A stretch of 64,000 nucleotides of DNA, from assembly GCF_008806595.1 (NCBI RefSeq), contig NZ_VZRB01000007.1, forward strand, positions 1 to 64,000, read 5' to 3'. The stretch is from Streptomyces luteolifulvus. GTDB lineage: Bacteria > Actinomycetota > Actinomycetes > Streptomycetales > Streptomycetaceae. The notes under the pieces are model-generated. The model saw only the letters and a program-made list of their open reading frames with translations, was not told where the DNA came from and ran no database searches. Within the stretch, counting starts at the first letter, position 1. Each line of letters starts with the position of its first letter. The position numbers were made by a program, and so were the translations under genes. Below, piece by piece: positions 7,062 to 36,229 of this stretch.

Positions 7062-8309
7062 CTACTCGTTGGCCGCGCGTGGCCGGTCCCCGTCCTCGTA
7101 CTGGTCGAAGAGCGGCGTACGCCCGCGCTCTCGGGCACGGCGGGCGGAGGCGGCGCGACGGGCGTCACTGCGGCCGTCCGCCGCCGGCCTGTCCTCCGCG
7201 GGGGACGGCTCCTCCGCTCCCCCGTCGCGCGCGCCGGGCTCCGCTTCCTGTTCCTGCTCCTGGTCCGGAGGCACCGAGCTGGACCGCGCCGAGCTCCACG
7301 CGTCCGCCGCTCCGAGATCCACATCGGCGGTGGCCCGCGGCGCGACCGGAGCGGTCACATACGTCGGCAGCGGCACCGGCACCGGGTCCCAGCTGTCCCC
7401 GTGTCCCGGCCCGCGCTGCCGCTCGCGCTGCTGGTCGACCCACTCGGCGTGGTCGGTCTGCTCGACGAGCGCCCGGCGGTCCGCGGCGAGCGCCGACATC
7501 CCGGGATCCACCTCCGGCTCGGGCCCCTCGTCCGGCTCCGCCGCCTCCGCGCCGGTGTCCGCGGCCGTCGGGCGACGGCGCGGCTGGCGTGCGCGCTCCC
7601 GCAGTCGCTGTGCGGCGGCCTCGGCCCGGCGCCGGTCCATCTGGTAGGCGAATCGGCGGCGTTCCTGGGCCCGCAGATGCGCGATGTACGCACTGAGCAG
7701 TACGGCGGGTACGCCGGGCGCCCAGAGGAACGCGAGCCCGCCGACCGCGGCAACGATCGCGCCGAGGGTGAACGCGAGGAAGAGCATCACGGTGGTACGC
7801 CGACGGCGCGCGAGCACCTTCGTACGCCGGGCCCGCGCGGCGGCCGCCTCCGCACTGGCATCCCGCCGGGCGGCCGGCACCCGCTTCCGCTGCGGTGCGC
7901 GTCCCCGAGCCCGCTCCTGGTCCCGGACCTGGTCCCGGACCTGTTCACGAACCTGGTCCCGTACCTGTTCGCGCGCCGGTTCCGCCCTTCCCGCGCCGCC
8001 CTGCGGCTCGACGGCCGCGTGGGTCTGCTTACGGGTCGGGGGCATGGCGAAGGACCGGACGTCCACCGAATCGGTGACCGCGCCCGGCTCCTCGGCGCTG
8101 GGCTCCCCCTCGTCGGTGGAGCGCGCCCGCAGGTCCTTGGCGTACCGGCGCTCCATCCCCGCCCGTCCGGACAGCAACCGGATGGCTGTGCTGAAGCGTT
8201 CCGTCGGACGGGCCTCGTTCAGCTCGTCCTGCCTACGGAGCCACATCGGCACCAGGTAGGCGGCCCAGGCCCCGACAATGACTGCGTAGATGAGGCCGCT
8301 GCTGCTCAC
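7062..8309 (-). CDS. sepX: divisome membrane protein SepX (GlpR-like)
   Basis: This is a 415-aa membrane protein matching the actinobacterial SepX/GlpR type. There is one N-terminal transmembrane helix (SGLIYAVIVGAWAAYLVPMW) and a charged cytoplasmic stretch. A second hydrophobic region at about residues 172–208 holds two helices (TVMLFLAFTLGAIVAAVGGL, then LSAYIAHL), followed by a long acidic, Arg/Ala-rich tail. SepX is a known Streptomyces septation protein, and its corynebacterial counterpart GlpR is the membrane receptor of the MoeA-like protein Glp. Here it lies downstream of rimJ and moeA on the same strand, matching that relationship. Residues ~112–131 are a heptad-like R-D/E-Q-V repeat encoded by near-identical DNA units. 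The start is GTG 8309. Confidence 0.85.
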   Translation of the reverse strand: MSSSGLIYAVIVGAWAAYLVPMWLRRQDELNEARPTERFSTAIRLLSGRAGMERRYAKDLRARSTDEGEPSAEEPGAVTDSVDVRSFAMPPTRKQTHAAVEPQGGAGRAEPAREQVRDQVREQVRDQVRDQERARGRAPQRKRVPAARRDASAEAAAARARRTKVLARRRRTTVMLFLAFTLGAIVAAVGGLAFLWAPGVPAVLLSAYIAHLRAQERRRFAYQMDRRRAEAAAQRLRERARQPRRRPTAADTGAEAAEPDEGPEPEVDPGMSALAADRRALVEQTDHAEWVDQQRERQRGPGHGDSWDPVPVPLPTYVTAPVAPRATADVDLGAADAWSSARSSSVPPDQEQEQEAEPGARDGGAEEPSPAEDRPAADGRSDARRAASARRARERGRTPLFDQYEDGDRPRAANE

Positions 8310-8508
8310 GCCTCACACGGTAGAGGGATTTACGTGAGGCCATCCGCCAATTGAGCCGGTGTGTCGCACGATCTGGCTGATATTTCGAGCTTTTTTTGTG
8401 AGCGATGCGATCACTAGGCCACCGAAGGTAGCGAATTCAGCACCCCGAGACGGTCATCCGTCGATCACTTTCGAACATTTATTCAATTTCCCGGCTTTGC
8501 GGGATGGG
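8310..8508. promoter_or_regulatory. AT-richer upstream region of sepX with inverted repeat
   Basis: This 199-bp gap is notably lower in GC than its surroundings and holds the sepX promoter if sepX is transcribed independently. A perfect 7-bp dyad, GCCTCAC (8310–8316) and GTGAGGC (8334–8340), touches the sepX start codon and could mask its ribosome site or bind a regulator. I see no convincing −10/−35 pair. Confidence 0.4.
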
Positions 8509-9123
8509 CTATGCCGGATTGTCGTGGGGCGTACTCCGGGATCGTGCCCGCTGCCAGCGCCTCAGCAAACCGTCCGGCACCTCTTCCGCGGTGAGCGCGA
8601 AGACGAGGTGGTCGCGCCAGGCACCGTCGATGTGGAGATAACGGGGCCTGAGCCCCTCCTCGCGGAATCCGAGTTTCTCCACCACCCGGCGGCTCGGCCC
8701 GTTCTCCGGGCGAATGCAGACCTCGATGCGGTGGAGTCCGACGGTCCGGAAACAGTGGTCCACGGCGAGCGCCACGGACGTCGGCATCACACCCCGGCCG
8801 GCCACCGCCTCGTCCACCCAGTAGCCGACATGCCCGGAACACATCGAGCCCCAGGTGATCCCGGCGACCGTCAACTGCCCCACCAGCCGCCCCTGGTACT
8901 CGATGACGAACGGCAGCATCCGACCCGCGTTCGCCTCGGAGCGCAGATGCCTGACCATCTGGCGATAGGTGGGCCGGTGGGTGATCGGCCCGGCCGGCGT
9001 GGGCGGCGGAATGGTCGCCTCCCAGGGGCGCAGCCACTCCCGGTTGCGCCGGTTGACCTCGCGCCACGCCCGCTGGTCGCGCAGCTTTATCGGCCGGAGG
9101 ACGACATCGCCGTCCGCCAGCAC
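8509..9123 (-). CDS. rimJ: GNAT-family N-acetyltransferase, RimJ-like
   Basis: This is a 204-aa acetyltransferase of the RimJ/RimL branch, which acetylates protein N-termini. It shows the RimJ opening VVLRPIKLRDQRAWREVNRR. The acetyl-CoA site is the segment AGRGVMPTSVALAVDHCF (the RGxG/A-type loop). The C-terminal motif NGPSRRVVEKLGFREEGL precedes the RDHLVFAL end. The listed start is GTG 9123, but the frame continues upstream (NRPSWPV) to a CTG at 9147 overlapping the moaB stop, so the protein may be 8 residues longer. rimJ sits between moaB and sepX in a conserved block also found in mycobacteria (Rv0995). The target protein is unknown. Confidence 0.85.
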   Translation of the reverse strand: MLADGDVVLRPIKLRDQRAWREVNRRNREWLRPWEATIPPPTPAGPITHRPTYRQMVRHLRSEANAGRMLPFVIEYQGRLVGQLTVAGITWGSMCSGHVGYWVDEAVAGRGVMPTSVALAVDHCFRTVGLHRIEVCIRPENGPSRRVVEKLGFREEGLRPRYLHIDGAWRDHLVFALTAEEVPDGLLRRWQRARSRSTPHDNPA

Positions 9124-9143
9124 GACGGGCCAGGATGGGCGGT

Positions 9144-9659
9144 TCAGCTCGCACCCCCACTGCCGGCGGCGGGTCTGGGGTGGTCACCGCCGCGGATCTG
9201 GTCCACGGCGTGCACCAGCAGCGGCTCCAGAACGGCGAGGCCGTCCTTCACCCCGCCGGTGGAACCGGGCAGGTTGACGATCAGGGTCCGCCGCGCCACT
9301 CCGGCCAGTCCCCGGGAGAGCGCCGCGGCCGGCACCTTCTCCCGGCCGAACGCCCTGATGGCCTCCGCGATGCCCGGCACCTCGTAGTCGATCACCTCGC
9401 GGGTCGCCTCCGGTGTGCGGTCGGTGGGCGAGATGCCGGTGCCGCCGGTGGTCAGGACGACGTCGTACCCGGCCTCGACGCCGGCGCGCAGGGCGGCCTC
9501 GACGGGGTCACCGTCCGGCACGACCTGCGGTCCGTCGGCGGTGAAGCCGAAGCTCTTGAGGCCCGCGGCGATCAGCGGGCCACCCTTGTCCTCGTACACA
9601 CCCGCGGCGGCGCGATTGGAGGCGGTCACGACCAGCGCGCGGTACGCCCCGGTGGTCAT
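9144..9659 (-). CDS. moaB: molybdopterin adenylyltransferase-type protein MoaB/Mog
   Basis: This is a 171-aa protein of the MoaB/MogA fold, acting in the late steps of molybdenum cofactor synthesis (adenylylation of molybdopterin). The nucleotide/molybdopterin-binding motif [20 protein letters not shown] is intact, as is NLPGSTGGV near the C-terminus. The start ATG 9659 overlaps the stop of moaC (ATGA), so translation is coupled. A longer upstream reading of this frame overlaps moaC and is not likely to be used. Neighbours moaC and moeA support the assignment. Confidence 0.92.
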
Positions 9660-10245: not shown

Positions 10246-10304
10246 ACGGGCACGCGCGCGTGCGCTCAGCCACTGCGGACGGGCACACGCGCCCGCGCTC
10301 AGCC
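10246..10304. repeat. 26-bp direct repeats at the moeA stop codon
   Basis: Two copies of ACGGGCACxCGCG...GCTCAGCC lie at 10246–10271 and 10279–10304, with a 33-bp period and a few mismatches. The second copy contains the moeA stop codon (complement of TCA at 10299–10301). Confidence 0.7.
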
Positions 10305-11621
10305 GAGCAGAACGACCTCGACCTCGGTGCCGGGCTCGACGGACTCGACGTCCTCGGGGACGACGATCAGCGCGTCCGCCTGCGCGAGGGCCGCGACCAG
10401 GTGGGATCCGGCACCGCCGACCGGGCTGACCGTGCCCTCGGCGTACGCCCCGCGCAGGAACTGTCTGCGCCCCTTCGGCGAGGTCAGCGCCTTGTCCGCG
10501 GTCAGCTTCGCCCGGGTCGTCGGCCGGTGGACGTCGGCGAGCCCCATGAGGGTGCGGATGGCGGGGCGCACGAACAGCTCGAAGGAGACGTACGACGACA
10601 CGGGGTTGCCGGGGAGCGCGAGCAGCGGCGTGTGGTCGGGGCCGATGGAGCCGAAGCCCTGGGGCTTGCCGGGCTGCATGGCGATCTTGCGGAACTCGAT
10701 GCCGCTGCCGGGCTCGTCCTCGTCGCCGACGGAGGACAGGGCCTCCTTGACGACGTCGTACGCCCCCACGCTCACGCCGCCCGTGGTGACCAGGAGGTCG
10801 GCGCGGACCAGCTGGTCCTCGATGGTGGACCGGAGCGTCTCGGCGTCGTCGGCGACTCCGCCCACGCGGTAGGCGATGGCGCCGGCGTCGCGGGCGGCGG
10901 CGGTGAGGGCGAAGCTGTTGGAGTCGTGGATCTGACCGCTGCCCAGTTTCTCGCCGGGCTGGACGAGTTCGCTGCCGGTGGACATGACGACCACGCGCGG
11001 GCGCGGGCGCACCCGGACGGTGCCGCGTCCGATCGCGGCGAGCAGGGCGATCTGCGGCGGGCCGAGAACCGTGCCCGCCACTAGGGCGCGGTCTCCCGCC
11101 TTGACGTCGCTGCCCTGCGCGCGCACATGCGCGCGTGCTTCTGCGGGCCGGTACACACGCACCTGGCCCTCGGCGCCCTCGGGGGCCAGCGCACGAGCGC
11201 GCATCCCGGTCACCGGGCCCTCCCCGAGGCCCCCGTCGGTCCACTCCACGGGCACGACGGCCTCCGCGCCGGACGGCAGCGGGGCTCCGGTCATGATGCG
11301 GGCGGTCTGGCCGGGGCCCACCTGAAGCAGCTCGGCCTGGCCGGCCGCGACGTCCCCGACGACCTCCAGGACGGCGGGGAACTCCTCGCTCGCGCCCGCG
11401 ACATCCGCGACCCGGACCGCGTACCCGTCCATGGAGCTGTTGTCGAAGGGCGGCAGGGACACCGGCACCGTGACGTCGTCGACCAGGACGCAGCCCTGGG
11501 CGTCGAGCAGTTGCAGCTCGATGGGATCGAGGGGGCGGACGGTGGCGAGGATGTCCTCCAGATGCTCGTCCACCGACCAGAGGTGGTCCTGACCGGCGGT
11601 GGGGGGCGCGGCGCTGCTCAA
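10299..11621 (-). CDS. moeA: molybdopterin molybdotransferase MoeA / gephyrin-like Glp
   Basis: This 440-aa protein has the full MoeA architecture. The N-terminal substrate motif is [14 protein letters not shown], followed by [18 protein letters not shown]. The central MPT-binding domain has [12 protein letters not shown] and [13 protein letters not shown], and [14 protein letters not shown] leads to the C-terminal β-barrel. MoeA inserts molybdate into adenylylated molybdopterin. In Corynebacterium a MoeA paralogue called Glp works in cell division with the membrane receptor GlpR. The presence of sepX in the same block means this copy could serve that role; sequence alone does not separate the two. 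galU ends 5 bp upstream, so the two are probably cotranscribed. Confidence 0.93.
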
Positions 11622-11626
11622 CGTTG

Positions 11627-12529
11627 CTACATCTCCTCGGCTACGTAACTGCGAAGCCAGGTCCGGAACTCCTGGCCCAGGTCTTCACGTTCGCATGCGA
11701 GTCTGACAATGGCACGCAGGTAGTCGCCTCGGTCGCCGGTGTCATAGCGCCGGCCCTTGAAGACGACGCCGTGGACCGGGCCTCCGGCCTTCTCGTCGTC
11801 GGCGAGCTGCTGGAGGGCGTCGGTGAGCTGGATCTCGCCGCCGCGGCCCGGCTCGGTCTTGTGCAGTATGCCGAAGATGGCCGGGTCGAGGACGTAACGG
11901 CCGATGATCGCGTAGTTGGACGGGGCGTCCGCCACGTCCGGCTTCTCGACCAGGCCGGTCACCTTGACGACGTCGCCGTCCTGGGTCGGCTCCACGGCCG
12001 CGCAGCCGTAGAGGTGGATCTGCTCCGGAGCGACCTCCATGAGCGCGACGACGCTGCCGCCCCGCTGCTCCTGGACCTCGACCATGCGTGCGAGCAGCGG
12101 GTCGCGCGGGTCGATCAGGTCGTCGCCGAGCAGGACGGCGAAGGGTTCGTTGCCGACGTGGGGGGCCGCGCACAGGACGGCGTGACCGAGACCCCTGGGG
12201 TCGCCCTGACGCACGTAGTGCATGGTCGCGAGGTCGCTCGACTCCTGGACCTTGGCCAGCCGCTCGGCGTCGCCCTTCTTCTCCAGGGCGGACTCGAGCT
12301 CGTAGTTGCGGTCGAAGTGGTCCTCGAGGGGCCGCTTGTTGCGGCCTGTGATCATGAGGACGTCGTCGAGGCCCGCGGCCACGGCCTCCTCGACCACATA
12401 CTGGATCGCCGGCTTGTCGACGACCGGCAGCATCTCCTTGGGAGTGGCCTTGGTGGCAGGAAGGAACCGGGTGCCGAGGCCTGCTGCGGGGATGACAGCC
12501 TTGCTGATCCTGGGGTGCGACTGGGTCAT
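11627..12529 (-). CDS. galU: UTP–glucose-1-phosphate uridylyltransferase
   Basis: This is a 300-aa enzyme making UDP-glucose from UTP and glucose-1-phosphate for cell-wall and polysaccharide synthesis. The nucleotide-binding signature GLGTRFLPATKATPKEMLP lies near the N-terminus, with VDKPAIQYVVEEAV after it. FAVLLGDDLI contains the metal-binding Asp, and GLVEKP plus the YVLDPAIF segment match bacterial GalU. The length is typical. It is the first gene of the minus-strand block galU-moeA-(moaC-moaB-rimJ-sepX) and is divergent from the cyclo-ligase gene 92 bp away. Confidence 0.95.
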   Translation of the reverse strand: MTQSHPRISKAVIPAAGLGTRFLPATKATPKEMLPVVDKPAIQYVVEEAVAAGLDDVLMITGRNKRPLEDHFDRNYELESALEKKGDAERLAKVQESSDLATMHYVRQGDPRGLGHAVLCAAPHVGNEPFAVLLGDDLIDPRDPLLARMVEVQEQRGGSVVALMEVAPEQIHLYGCAAVEPTQDGDVVKVTGLVEKPDVADAPSNYAIIGRYVLDPAIFGILHKTEPGRGGEIQLTDALQQLADDEKAGGPVHGVVFKGRRYDTGDRGDYLRAIVRLACEREDLGQEFRTWLRSYVAEEM

Positions 12530-12621
12530 GCCCGCAACCTTATCCGGTGCCTTTGCAGGGAATCTGTAGGTCCGGTTAATTGGCTCTCATATGAGCGCAA
12601 TGGATGGGTACGGGAGCAACT

Positions 12622-13251
12622 TTGAGTCACATCGGACGTCCGGCCGAGCCTGACAAGCGAACGTTGCGGCGAGAATTCCTCGCGGTGAGGAACACGTTGA
12701 CGGCGGATGACGTACGGGAGGCGGCCGCCGCGCTGGCCGAGCGGGCACTGGAGCTGCCCGAGCTGGAGCGGGCGCGCACGGTGGCGGCGTACGTCTCCGT
12801 GGGCACCGAGCCCGGGACCTTGGCGCTGCTGGACACGTTGCGCGCGCGGGGCGTGCGCGTTCTGCTGCCCGCGCTGCTGCCCGACAACGACCTGGACTGG
12901 GGCGCGTACGCCGGGGAGGGCTCCCTCGCGCGCGTGCAACACGGCGGCAGGATGGCGCTCTTCGAGCCCGCCGGCGAGCGCCTCGGCCCGGATGCCGTGA
13001 CGACGGCCGACGTGGTCCTGCTGCCGGGTCTCGCGGTCGACGCGCGCGGCATGCGGCTCGGACGCGGCGGCGGGTCGTACGACCGGGTGCTCACCCGGCT
13101 GGAGCAGGCGGGCGCCCGTCCCGCGCTGGTGGTGCTGCTGTACGACTCCGAGGTCGTCGGGCGGGTCCCCGCAGAGGAGCACGACCAGCCGGTGCACGCG
13201 GTGGTGACGCCGTCCGGTGTGCGCCGGTTCGGAGCGGATGTGCCGCACTGA
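12622..13251 (+). CDS. 5-formyltetrahydrofolate cyclo-ligase
   Basis: This is a cytosolic enzyme of ~209 aa that converts 5-formyl-THF to 5,10-methenyl-THF using ATP. Motifs are DKRTLRREFLAVRN at the N-terminus, the folate-pocket region YVSVGTEPGT, and the diagnostic LLPGLAVDARGMRLGRGGG followed by SYDRVL. I prefer TTG 12622 because GGGAG lies five bases upstream; ATG 12604 would add six residues. It is divergent from galU, as in mycobacteria (Rv0992c next to Rv0993). A perfect palindromic terminator follows. Confidence 0.92.
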   Translation: MSHIGRPAEPDKRTLRREFLAVRNTLTADDVREAAAALAERALELPELERARTVAAYVSVGTEPGTLALLDTLRARGVRVLLPALLPDNDLDWGAYAGEGSLARVQHGGRMALFEPAGERLGPDAVTTADVVLLPGLAVDARGMRLGRGGGSYDRVLTRLEQAGARPALVVLLYDSEVVGRVPAEEHDQPVHAVVTPSGVRRFGADVPH

Positions 13252-18121: not shown

Positions 18122-19384
18122 GTGGCATCCACGGTCACCTCCCGCCCCGGATACGGGCAGCTGCTGCGCACCCGCGGCGCCTGGACGTTCCTGCTCCCCG
18201 GCTTCGCGGCACGCCAGCCGTTCGCGATGCTCACCCTCTCCATCGTGCTCCTCGTGCAGCACACCACCGGCTCGTACGGTGCGGCAGGCGCCGCCGCGGC
18301 CGTCACCGGCGTCGCCATGGCACTGTTCGCCCCCTACAGCGGCCGCCTCGCGGACCGCTACGGGCAGCGTGCCGTGCTGCTCCCCGGCGTCCTGGTGCAC
18401 ACCCTGTCGGCCCTGGCCCTGACGGTGCTCGCCCTCGCGCACGCGCCCCTGTGGGCCCTGTTCGTGGCGGCGGTGCCCACCGGCGCCTCGGTGCCGCAGA
18501 TCGGCCCCATGGTGCGCGCCCGCTGGGGCGTGAAGCTCCAGGGCTCGCCCCTGATGACGACAGCGGCGGCCTTCGAGTCCGTCACGGACGAGCTGACCTT
18601 CGTCGTCGGGCCCCTGCTGGCCACCGCCCTGTGCACCACGGTCCACCCGGCCGCCGGCCTGGTCGCTGAGGCCTCGCTCACCCTGCTCGGCGGTTTGCTG
18701 TTCGCCGCGCGCAAGAGCACACGGCCCGCCGTCACGGCGGCGGAGCACGCGCGCGTGAAGCACGCCTCCGCGCTGCACGTCCCCGGAGTGCGCGTCCTGA
18801 TCGTGACCTTCCTGGGCATCGGCTCCGTCTTCGGCGGGATGCAGGTCTCGCTGGCCGCGTTCACCGAGTCGATCGGCGAGCCCGGCCTCAACGGCGTCCT
18901 GTACGGCGTCTTCGCCGCGGGCAACATGCTCTCCGGCGTCGTCTGCGGTGCCGTCGCCTGGCGGACGGCCCCGCAGCGGCGCCTGGTCATCGGGTACGCC
19001 GCCCTCGCGCTGGCCGCCTCCGGCCTGTGGGCCGCGCACTCGGTGCTGGTCCTGGCCGGCCTCGGCCTCCTGGTCGGTATGTGCATCGCGCCCGCCCTGA
19101 TCACCGGCTACACCCTGGTCGACAGCCTGGTCCCGGCCGGCGCCCGCACCGAGGCCTTCACCTGGCTGACCGGCGCGGTGGCGCTCGGCCAGGCGGCCGC
19201 CGTCACAGTCGCCGGACAGCTGGAGGACCGCTTCTCGGACGGCGCCGGATTCCTGGTGCCGATGGGCGGCACGGTGCTCGCCCTGGTGACCCTGGTGGCG
19301 CTGCGCTCGCGGCTTTCGGCACGGCCCCGCGGCCGTACCGTCGCACGTGGCGTCGGTCACCGCATGCCGGTGGCAGTGGACTGA
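18122..19384 (+). CDS. MFS transporter
   Basis: This is a 420-aa major facilitator superfamily permease with about 12 transmembrane helices. A long loop between TM6 and TM7 is rich in charged residues (ARKSTRPAVTAAEHARVKHA). The motif-A-like loop GRLADRYGQRAVLLPG lies between TM2 and TM3. GTG 18122 (VASTVTSRPGYGQL) is the probable start because the upstream extension is Arg/Pro-rich and unlike a transporter N-terminus. The substrate cannot be inferred and there is no adjacent regulator. The gene ends 68 bp before the FmdB start. Confidence 0.85.
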   Translation: MASTVTSRPGYGQLLRTRGAWTFLLPGFAARQPFAMLTLSIVLLVQHTTGSYGAAGAAAAVTGVAMALFAPYSGRLADRYGQRAVLLPGVLVHTLSALALTVLALAHAPLWALFVAAVPTGASVPQIGPMVRARWGVKLQGSPLMTTAAAFESVTDELTFVVGPLLATALCTTVHPAAGLVAEASLTLLGGLLFAARKSTRPAVTAAEHARVKHASALHVPGVRVLIVTFLGIGSVFGGMQVSLAAFTESIGEPGLNGVLYGVFAAGNMLSGVVCGAVAWRTAPQRRLVIGYAALALAASGLWAAHSVLVLAGLGLLVGMCIAPALITGYTLVDSLVPAGARTEAFTWLTGAVALGQAAAVTVAGQLEDRFSDGAGFLVPMGGTVLALVTLVALRSRLSARPRGRTVARGVGHRMPVAVD

Positions 19385-19414
19385 TCCTCGGGAATACGTC
19401 ACTATGGACGCTCG

Positions 19415-19441
19415 TTAGCACTCATTGAGTGAGAGTGCCAG
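19415..19441 (+). promoter_or_regulatory. CIRCE-like HrcA operator
   Basis: TTAGCACTC (19415–19423), nine bases, then GAGTGCCAG (19433–19441). The CIRCE consensus is TTAGCACTC-N9-GAGTGCTAA. The left arm is exact, the spacing is exact and the right arm matches 7 of 9. It lies 11 bp before the GTG of the FmdB gene, overlapping its ribosome-binding region. CIRCE is the operator of the heat-shock repressor HrcA. Confidence 0.75.
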
Positions 19442-19452
19442 GAGGAAGACAA

Positions 19453-19788
19453 GTGCCGACCTACCAGTACCAGTGCACCGAGTGCGGCGAGGGCCTCGAG
19501 GCGGTGCAGAAGTTCACCGACGACGCCCTGACCGAGTGCCCCCAGTGCGATGGCCGCCTGAAGAAGGTGTTCTCCGCGGTCGGCATTGTCTTCAAGGGTT
19601 CCGGCTTCTACCGCAACGACAGCCGCGGCTCCTCGTCGAGCAGCTCGCCGGCGTCCGCCTCGAAGTCGTCGACGTCCGGCTCGTCGACGTCGGACTCCTC
19701 GTCGTCGTCCTCCTCCTCGTCGTCTTCGTCGTCCTCGGACACGAAGTCGTCGAGCACCAGCGCCTCCACCGGCAGCTCCGCCGCGTAG
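19453..19788 (+). CDS. FmdB-family zinc ribbon protein, Ruc-like
   Basis: This is a 111-aa protein. The first ~45 residues are an FmdB/CxxC zinc ribbon: PTYQYQCTECGEGLEAVQ, then TECPQCDGRLKKVFSAVG, with four cysteines in two CxxC pairs. The remaining ~65 residues are almost pure Ser/Thr/Asp/Lys and certainly disordered. This matches mycobacterial Rv0991c (Ruc), a heat-inducible, redox-regulated chaperone with a disordered serine-rich tail. A CIRCE-like operator upstream fits HrcA control. GTG 19453 follows a strong AGGAGGAAG site. Gene order relative to the cyclo-ligase/galU block also resembles mycobacteria, although acylase, antiporter and MFS genes intervene here. The function is inferred by analogy. 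Confidence 0.8.
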   Translation: MPTYQYQCTECGEGLEAVQKFTDDALTECPQCDGRLKKVFSAVGIVFKGSGFYRNDSRGSSSSSSPASASKSSTSGSSTSDSSSSSSSSSSSSSSDTKSSSTSASTGSSAA

Positions 19789-21470: not shown

Positions 21471-21554
21471 GCCGGTGGACAGGGCCGCCTCTTCCTGACG
21501 TAGGTTGCGGAGCTGTTCGTTCCACACCCTGTGCGCACAACGAGAGGCCCCGAG

Positions 21555-22019
21555 GTGAGCGAGAAGAAGGATGCGAGCGTCTGGCAGGGCTTCAAGGCCT
21601 TCCTGATGCGCGGGAACGTCGTCGATCTGGCGGTGGCGGTTGTCATCGGCGCCGCATTCACCAACATCGTCAACTCGGTGGTGAAGGGCCTGATCAACCC
21701 GCTGGTCGGAGCGATCGGCACCAAGAACCTCGACAACTACAGCTCCTGCCTCAGTTCGACGTGCGAGGGCGACCGCGGCATCCGGCTGCTGTGGGGCTCG
21801 GTTCTCGGCGCCACGCTCACCTTCGTGATCACGGCGACCGTCGTCTACTTCCTGATGGTCCTGCCCATGTCCAAGTACCTGGGGCGACTGGAGGCCAGGA
21901 GAAAGGCGAAGGAGAGCGCACACGAAGTCATCGAGGTGACCGAGCTGGAGGTGCTCAAGGAGATCCGCGACGCGCTGCTCGCCCAGCAGCAGCGCGGGCC
22001 GGGGCGCGACGGGCGGTAG
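21555..22019 (+). CDS. mscL: large-conductance mechanosensitive channel MscL
   Basis: This is a 154-aa pentameric membrane channel opening under osmotic downshock. The N-terminal amphipathic start WQGFKAFLMRGNVVDLAVAV and the first transmembrane helix VVIGAAFTNIVNSVVKGLIN are characteristic. The second helix is GATLTFVITATVVYFLMVLP, followed by a charged C-terminal helix. The periplasmic loop contains two cysteines (SSCLSSTCEGD), a possible disulphide. The start chosen is GTG 21555 (SEKKDASVWQGF). Confidence 0.95.
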   Translation: MSEKKDASVWQGFKAFLMRGNVVDLAVAVVIGAAFTNIVNSVVKGLINPLVGAIGTKNLDNYSSCLSSTCEGDRGIRLLWGSVLGATLTFVITATVVYFLMVLPMSKYLGRLEARRKAKESAHEVIEVTELEVLKEIRDALLAQQQRGPGRDGR

Positions 22020-35121: not shown

Positions 35122-36117
<996 letters not shown>

Positions 36118-36202: not shown

Positions 36203-36229
36203 AACGACTGGAATCCGGACAGAATTCCC
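36203..36229 (-). promoter_or_regulatory. SigR-type promoter of hrdD
   Basis: On the minus strand GGGAAT (36229–36224) is followed by exactly 18 bases and GTTG (36205–36202). The thiol-stress sigma factor SigR recognises GGAAT-N18/19-GTT. The transcript would start about 80 bp before the hrdD ATG. hrdD is a known SigR target in S. coelicolor. Confidence 0.8.

Follow-up and report, generated by a model that had tools for sequence, protein, structure and literature searches.

A CIRCE operator overlapping a sigma-R type promoter in front of the probable Streptomyces orthologue of the redox chaperone gene ruc

The analyzed DNA is a stretch of 64,000 nucleotides from Streptomyces luteolifulvus (hereafter, the window). 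It contains a small gene for an FmdB-type zinc ribbon protein (19453..19788, forward strand, stop codon included), which raises the question of whether this gene is the Streptomyces counterpart of mycobacterial ruc, and which regulators control it. An earlier note on the window had predicted an HrcA-controlled, redox-gated holdase. We consider it quite probable that this is ruc of Streptomyces, a gene under HrcA repression that SigR transcribes and that encodes a zinc-gated redox holdase. The proposed regulation is well supported by the comparative sequence analysis described below. HrcA binding and the expression pattern in Streptomyces are predicted from the same comparisons, and the chaperone activity is predicted by analogy with the M. 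tuberculosis protein.

The predicted HrcA site is a CIRCE operator at positions 19415..19441 (no strand assigned), where the letters read TTAGCACTC-ATTGAGTGA-GAGTGCCAG. Compared to the canonical TTAGCACTC-N9-GAGTGCTAA, the observed arms in TTAGCACTC-N9-GAGTGCCAG match at nine of nine positions on the left and seven of nine on the right with exact spacing, just as the earlier note had read them, and all 12 bases of the core GCACTC-N9-GAGTGC are present. When up to three mismatches to the canonical pattern are allowed, the window has no match other than this site (two mismatches), and CIRCE matches appeared in 0 of 100 dinucleotide shuffles of the window. The operator was also rightly placed over the translation initiation region: its 3' end overlaps the ribosome-binding site AGGAGG (19440..19445, forward strand; read directly, 7 nt before the start codon), and its last base at 19441 lies 11 nt 5' of the GTG at 19453. 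The nine-nucleotide spacer (19424-19432) is itself rather conserved in the genus, often as AT[T/C]GAGTGA, and gives a third GAGTG half-site within the operator.

The listed open reading frame of 119 amino acids (start at 19429) would begin inside CIRCE; the MPTY start at 19453 gives a protein of 111 amino acids. This protein matches both PF09723 and TIGR02605 above cut-off. The zinc ribbon comprises residues 1-41 (19453..19575, forward strand; PF09723 E 6.2e-15 over residues 1-40) with cysteines at positions 8, 11, 29 and 32, which are the residues mutated in the study of M. tuberculosis Ruc, Rv0991c (PMC7448276). Thus the four-Cys ribbon and the likeness to Ruc described in the earlier note are both borne out, and 27 of 43 residues are identical to Ruc fragments, as read from printed primers. 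The C-terminal part is a low-complexity Ser-rich tail (19627..19785, forward strand), for which disorder is predicted from composition. Past residue 56 it includes 55 amino acids, 65% of them Ser and 98% from the set S/T/G/A/P/K/D/E/Q/N, with zero V/I/L/M/F/W/Y/C; the tail is therefore Ser-rich as had been noted, and somewhat shorter than the roughly 65 residues given there. A four-Cys N-terminal ribbon followed by a variable hydrophilic C-terminus is what characterizes the Ruc family by sequence, and both features are found here. The AlphaFold model of the full protein is of low confidence (pLDDT 53.7) and has no predicted C-terminal secondary structure, while the model of residues 1-58, also of low confidence (pLDDT 66.1), has three strands compatible with a ribbon. 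Since a Foldseek comparison of the latter model with the PDB returned no chain at E <= 0.001 (best 0.035, MCM N-terminal domains), we make no fold claim; a sequence search of solved structures gave weak matches only (best E 0.0083, PRDM9 zinc fingers). The genome has a second FmdB-type gene (locus L070, C40:266814-266954, open frame of 76 amino acids) that scores 57.9 bits over cut-off against TIGR02605, and no exact-core CIRCE was found on its contig.

The published SigR consensus is GGAAT-N18-19-GTT (PMC9205884), and this motif is found at ruc with a spacing of N18. The -35 element GGAAT occupies 19391..19395 and the -10 element GTT occupies 19414..19416 (both on the forward strand), so that the promoter overlaps CIRCE by 2 bp; it spans 19391-19416 within the intergenic stretch that begins directly after the MFS gene upstream (stop at 19384). 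The interpretation given in the earlier note is thus supported and also incomplete, as this sigma-R type promoter overlapping the operator had been missed. The motif taken alone is not rare, with two matches in the window versus 0.74 expected. The second match (36203-36228, reverse strand) lies 85 nt before an open reading frame (35122-36117, reverse strand) that by eye resembles the sigma factor gene hrdD. The hrdD gene is a SigR target, and we use this second motif as an informal positive control. A SigH/SigR-type sigma factor was detected in the genome by a profile search (361.9 bits, cut-off 251.55). For S. coelicolor, where mscL is SCO3190, locus-tag searches for the ruc counterpart returned nothing useful, and no gene of SCO318x-319x is mentioned in the main text of the RIViT-seq study.

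The cognate regulator is encoded in the S. luteolifulvus genome (hrcA, TIGR00331, 344 bits, cut-off 197.2). Allowing up to one mismatch in CIRCE, we found 33 places genome-wide versus 46 for the reversed pattern, which is the chance level, and therefore only exact-core sites were weighed in this genome. There are seven such sites, and five of them precede groESL (two sites), groEL2, hrcA-dnaJ and ruc (GroES, GroEL and DnaJ were named by eye and hrcA by TIGR00331); groEL2 has an additional one-mismatch site. The outer arms are poor at the two other sites, C18:29918 (apparently inside a coding sequence) and C60:7348, and we disregarded both as probably due to chance. This set corresponds to the M. 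tuberculosis genes directly repressed by HrcA, namely groES, groEL1, groEL2 and ruc (PMC7448276, PMC8223512, PMC13091356), with the addition of hrcA itself. The HrcA regulon described for Streptomyces includes groES-groEL1, groEL2 and hrcA with a second dnaJ (PMC9739823); ruc shares the operator core with these genes and is expected to share the regulator, but it is the only one of the four CIRCE transcription units with a sigma-R motif near the operator, none being found within about 150 nt on either side of the sites at groESL, groEL2 and hrcA-dnaJ. Hsp33, which is reported to be rare or absent in Actinobacteria (PMC7448276), was undetected in this genome at E <= 0.001.

The absence of the dyad from relatives had been named in the earlier note as grounds for refutation, and the comparison was run at three levels, with the operator found in most loci at each. 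Within the genus, 147 of 150 genomes, S. luteolifulvus included, have an exact core 5-35 nt upstream of an MPTY start; for good-quality genomes the proportion is 146 of 147, with 0 for the reversed-pattern control, and two of the three genomes without the pattern are 79-82% complete. The sigma-R type promoter joined to CIRCE (GGAAT-N16-20-GTT) is present in 141 of the 150 genomes, again including S. luteolifulvus. The nine others comprise the three genomes without the CIRCE-ruc pattern and six in which CIRCE is present but the exact promoter is not. At the second level are named loci found by protein similarity, namely the best 80 of 589 matches and mostly from Streptomycetaceae. The operator is present in 79 of the 80 and has an exact core in 76, and a sigma-R motif adjoins it in 69. 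The 12 core columns are 96-100% conserved in these 79 loci and the spacer columns 51-94%, a comparison that favours the arms because the loci were picked for a near-match.

At the level of the class, 246 genomes were analyzed, with a Ruc-like protein in 235 and hrcA in 239. Outside the genus, 213 genomes have a Ruc-like protein, and 133 upstream regions from these were analyzed. The sample combines 80 best-scoring listed matches without strict-pattern hits, 23 strict-pattern loci and 30 further loci, mostly from genera not covered before. In 111 of the 133 loci, representing 77 of 96 genera and 34 of 41 families, a CIRCE with no more than one mismatch in the core is present within 300 nt, compared to one of 2660 shuffled sequences. 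Without the 23 loci chosen for having CIRCE, the operator is found in 88 of 110 (72 of 80 and 16 of 30). Among the 22 loci without an operator, all sampled members of families f5, f25, f32, f36, f39, f43 and f44 are included, and families f26, f29, f33, f34 and f38 lack it in part. Since these loci have no operator even though 239 of 246 genomes carry hrcA, the HrcA control of ruc is not universal. Of the 46 strict-pattern hits, 45 count, since one (L042 in genome G249, family f36) does not concern ruc; at that place an exact-core CIRCE is located slightly upstream of an open reading frame that by eye is methyltransferase-like. A further locus (L103, family f27) has two adjacent CIRCE copies with identical spacers and then a partial third copy before ruc.

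Outside the genus, only 16 of the 111 loci with CIRCE have a sigma-R motif within 300 nt (0.12 expected from shuffles), eight of them in family f4 and eight in other families. In the latter eight, one motif is 4 nt from CIRCE and the others are 11 to 184 nt away. In family f4, GGAAT-N18-19-GTT lies no more than 15 nt from CIRCE in eight of eight loci and abuts or overlaps it in seven. In five of these loci the -10 element abuts the left arm, in one it overlaps the arm by 2, in one it lies 15 nt upstream, and in one the -35 element falls within the spacer. The last geometry, a sigma-H/R-like -35 inside the CIRCE spacer of L285 (genus g78), is unlike that of Streptomyces. Many other class loci have, by eye, a housekeeping-like promoter before CIRCE (TGGAC...). 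From these patterns, the CIRCE operator seems to be the older constant, to which sigma-R/H control appears to have been attached more than once.

The operators in front of ruc are often asymmetric. The gene-side half is GAGTGC in 110 of the 111 class sites, and the promoter-side half is GCACTC in 43, GCAGTC in 59, GCACTT in five, GCAATC in two and GCACTG in two, the GCAGTC form occurring in 38 genera and 13 families. We checked the groES operator in 34 variant genomes (32 GCAGTC, two GCAATC), which are those of 61 with a groES place listed and represent eight families, with 14 genomes from f17. In all 34, the groES CIRCE has a perfect core, which argues that the HrcA specificity has not drifted in these genomes and that the variant belongs to ruc. 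The variant half-site may weaken HrcA binding or may serve the promoter that it overlaps. The proteins have a constant feature of their own. All 132 class loci that could be read have Cys at 8, 11, 29 and 32 (the remaining one of the 133 is cut at a contig end), and the ribbon is followed by a near-invariant segment, which in S. luteolifulvus is FKGSGFYRNDSR (residues 47-58; 19591..19626, forward strand). In the class-locus comparison, FKGSGFY-x2-D-x-R is found in 112 of 132 loci, F-K/R-G-x-GFY-x2-D in 129, and F-N/S-GSGFY-x2-D in the remaining three; GFY-x2-D itself is present in all 132, and the C-terminal tail varies freely. As a tentative proposal, to which we give clearly less than an even chance when its two parts are taken jointly, the asymmetric CIRCE could let ruc fire below the GroE threshold, and GFY-x2-D rather than the tail could be the element of client binding or activation. 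If so, the redox holdase would be the earliest of the HrcA genes to respond, owing to a weaker, purposely asymmetric site. The inactive RucNterm construct of M. tuberculosis consists of residues 1-49 (PMC7448276), and this truncation removes both the tail and GFY-x2-D, so that the published result does not separate them.

The gene neighbourhood was analyzed mainly by profile matches, which identified on the reverse strand SepX/GlpR (7065..8312), Glp/MoeA (10302..11684) and GalU (11630..12586), and on the forward strand 5-formyltetrahydrofolate cyclo-ligase (12595..13248) and, downstream of ruc, MscL (21531..22019). A RimJ-like GNAT acetyltransferase (8512..9183, reverse strand) matches GNAT Pfam models above cut-off and the S5-alanine acetyltransferase model below cut-off. 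These neighbours are in line with the partial match to Rv0991c–Rv0996 proposed in the earlier note. One class genome of family f4 has SepX, RimJ-like, Glp, GalU-like, ruc and MscL genes in the same order and on the same strands as here; its RimJ and GalU models score below curated cut-offs, and cyclo-ligase was not identified in it. The cyclo-ligase gene is adjacent to ruc in M. tuberculosis, whereas in S. luteolifulvus the two are separated by about 6 kb with other genes (an antiporter, the MFS gene and, by eye, a penicillin-acylase-like gene). An MTAP gene follows ruc.

Three other explanations of these observations have to be weighed. The dyad sits at the translation start and could form a 6-bp stem if fully transcribed, so its main role might be in the mRNA rather than as an HrcA operator, with a hairpin beside the ribosome-binding site acting on translation or stability. 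We regard this as highly improbable. The leader folds no better than its shuffles (z -1.25, 21 of 200 as good; z -0.49 without the left arm), the distance from the dyad to the start codon varies widely across the class loci, and transcription starting 6-8 nt past the GTT of the sigma-R promoter would presumably leave the left arm mostly untranscribed. The frequent GCAGTC change (59 of 111 loci) also speaks against an RNA stem, which it breaks without compensation in the right arm, as that arm stays GAGTGC in 110 of 111. A role of CIRCE as a conserved relic that HrcA does not bind, with ruc being a sigma-R target only, would agree with the joined motifs in 141 of the 150 genus genomes. The distribution outside the genus makes it improbable, as the operator is kept in 34 of 41 families, and no sigma-R motif lies within 300 nt at 95 of the 111 loci with CIRCE; of the two elements, CIRCE is therefore conserved more widely.

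The remaining explanation concerns the product, which could be an FmdB-type zinc ribbon protein with another role that is merely co-regulated with chaperones. TIGR02605 is named as the FmdB family, the genome has a second FmdB-type gene on a contig without an exact-core CIRCE, and the structure model of the N-terminal part (residues 1-58) has low confidence and gave no PDB match at the threshold used. The protein is a member of this family by sequence, and the family name says nothing tested on chaperone function. On the other side, the cysteine numbering, the type of control and a similar neighbourhood are shared with a member of shown redox chaperone activity, Ruc, and we consider a different role unlikely. 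The reading of the gene as an HrcA-repressed, SigR-transcribed ruc thus remains the one that we prefer.

According to the mechanism that we propose, sigma-R RNA polymerase would transcribe ruc from GGAAT-N18-GTT, and HrcA bound on CIRCE, from the -10 element to the ribosome-binding site, would block this promoter. In CIRCE systems, HrcA is inactivated through GroE titration, and heat or protein misfolding would be expected to inactivate it here; thiol oxidation would release sigma-R from RsrA, whose oxidation is known to supply sigma-R (PMC5472188). Since HrcA would be lifted by misfolding and sigma-R freed by thiol oxidation, the strongest expression is expected under combined proteotoxic and disulfide stress. 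Given that CIRCE overlaps a disulfide-stress promoter and that the operator is kept in much of the class, ruc is probably switched on by both heat and oxidative stress. In M. tuberculosis, the loss of HrcA alone raises Ruc at 37 C (PMC7448276), which means that control in that species does not need a strict two-signal gate, and by analogy the HrcA/sigma-R gate may be additive rather than strict. The protein would hold zinc via Cys 8/11/29/32 and be inactive when reduced; once oxidised, it would lose zinc, act as a holdase and pass clients to DnaKJE. This follows the M. tuberculosis Ruc, which binds zinc, is inactive in the reduced form and, when oxidised, suppresses luciferase aggregation and aids DnaKJE (PMC7448276).

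The M. tuberculosis ruc gene is repressed by HrcA and induced by SigH through overlapping sites (PMC7448276), and Rv0991c has a value of 40.3 +/- 12.2 in a table of SigH-dependent transcription. The Streptomyces system resembles it in the N-terminal ribbon with Cys 8/11/29/32 and the hydrophilic C-terminus, and in an HrcA site that overlaps a promoter of the SigH/SigR class. The SepX/Glp/GalU and MscL neighbourhood, seen in this analysis in the family f4 genome, is a further likeness to M. tuberculosis. Besides the genes inserted before ruc, the two differ in the operator, as the left arm is perfect here, in contrast to GCACTT in five f4 g4 loci. Hsp33 (HslO) is alike in principle, with a four-Cys zinc switch and a holdase activated by oxidation (PMC7448276), but is unrelated in sequence.

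Systems of this kind are already known from Ruc, HrcA and SigH/SigR. What seems to be new is that the operator is conserved class-wide and, in Streptomyces, overlaps a sigma-R promoter, together with the half-site specific to ruc and the GFY-x2-D segment. Among the listed titles and abstract beginnings of CC-licensed PMC papers, we found no description of CIRCE/HrcA control of ruc in Streptomyces or of its class-wide conservation, nor of the sigma-R overlap, the half-site or the segment; the SigR promoter of ruc may already be included in published SigR target lists.

Altogether, these results place a candidate Ruc-type holdase under predicted HrcA control across much of the class, including a genome where Hsp33 was undetected, and the Streptomyces HrcA set would gain a gene. 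In the model genus for the sigma-R disulfide response, they also link ruc to this response; a putative two-signal control by misfolding and thiol oxidation becomes testable in harmless model strains, and a natural series of graded CIRCE operators becomes available.
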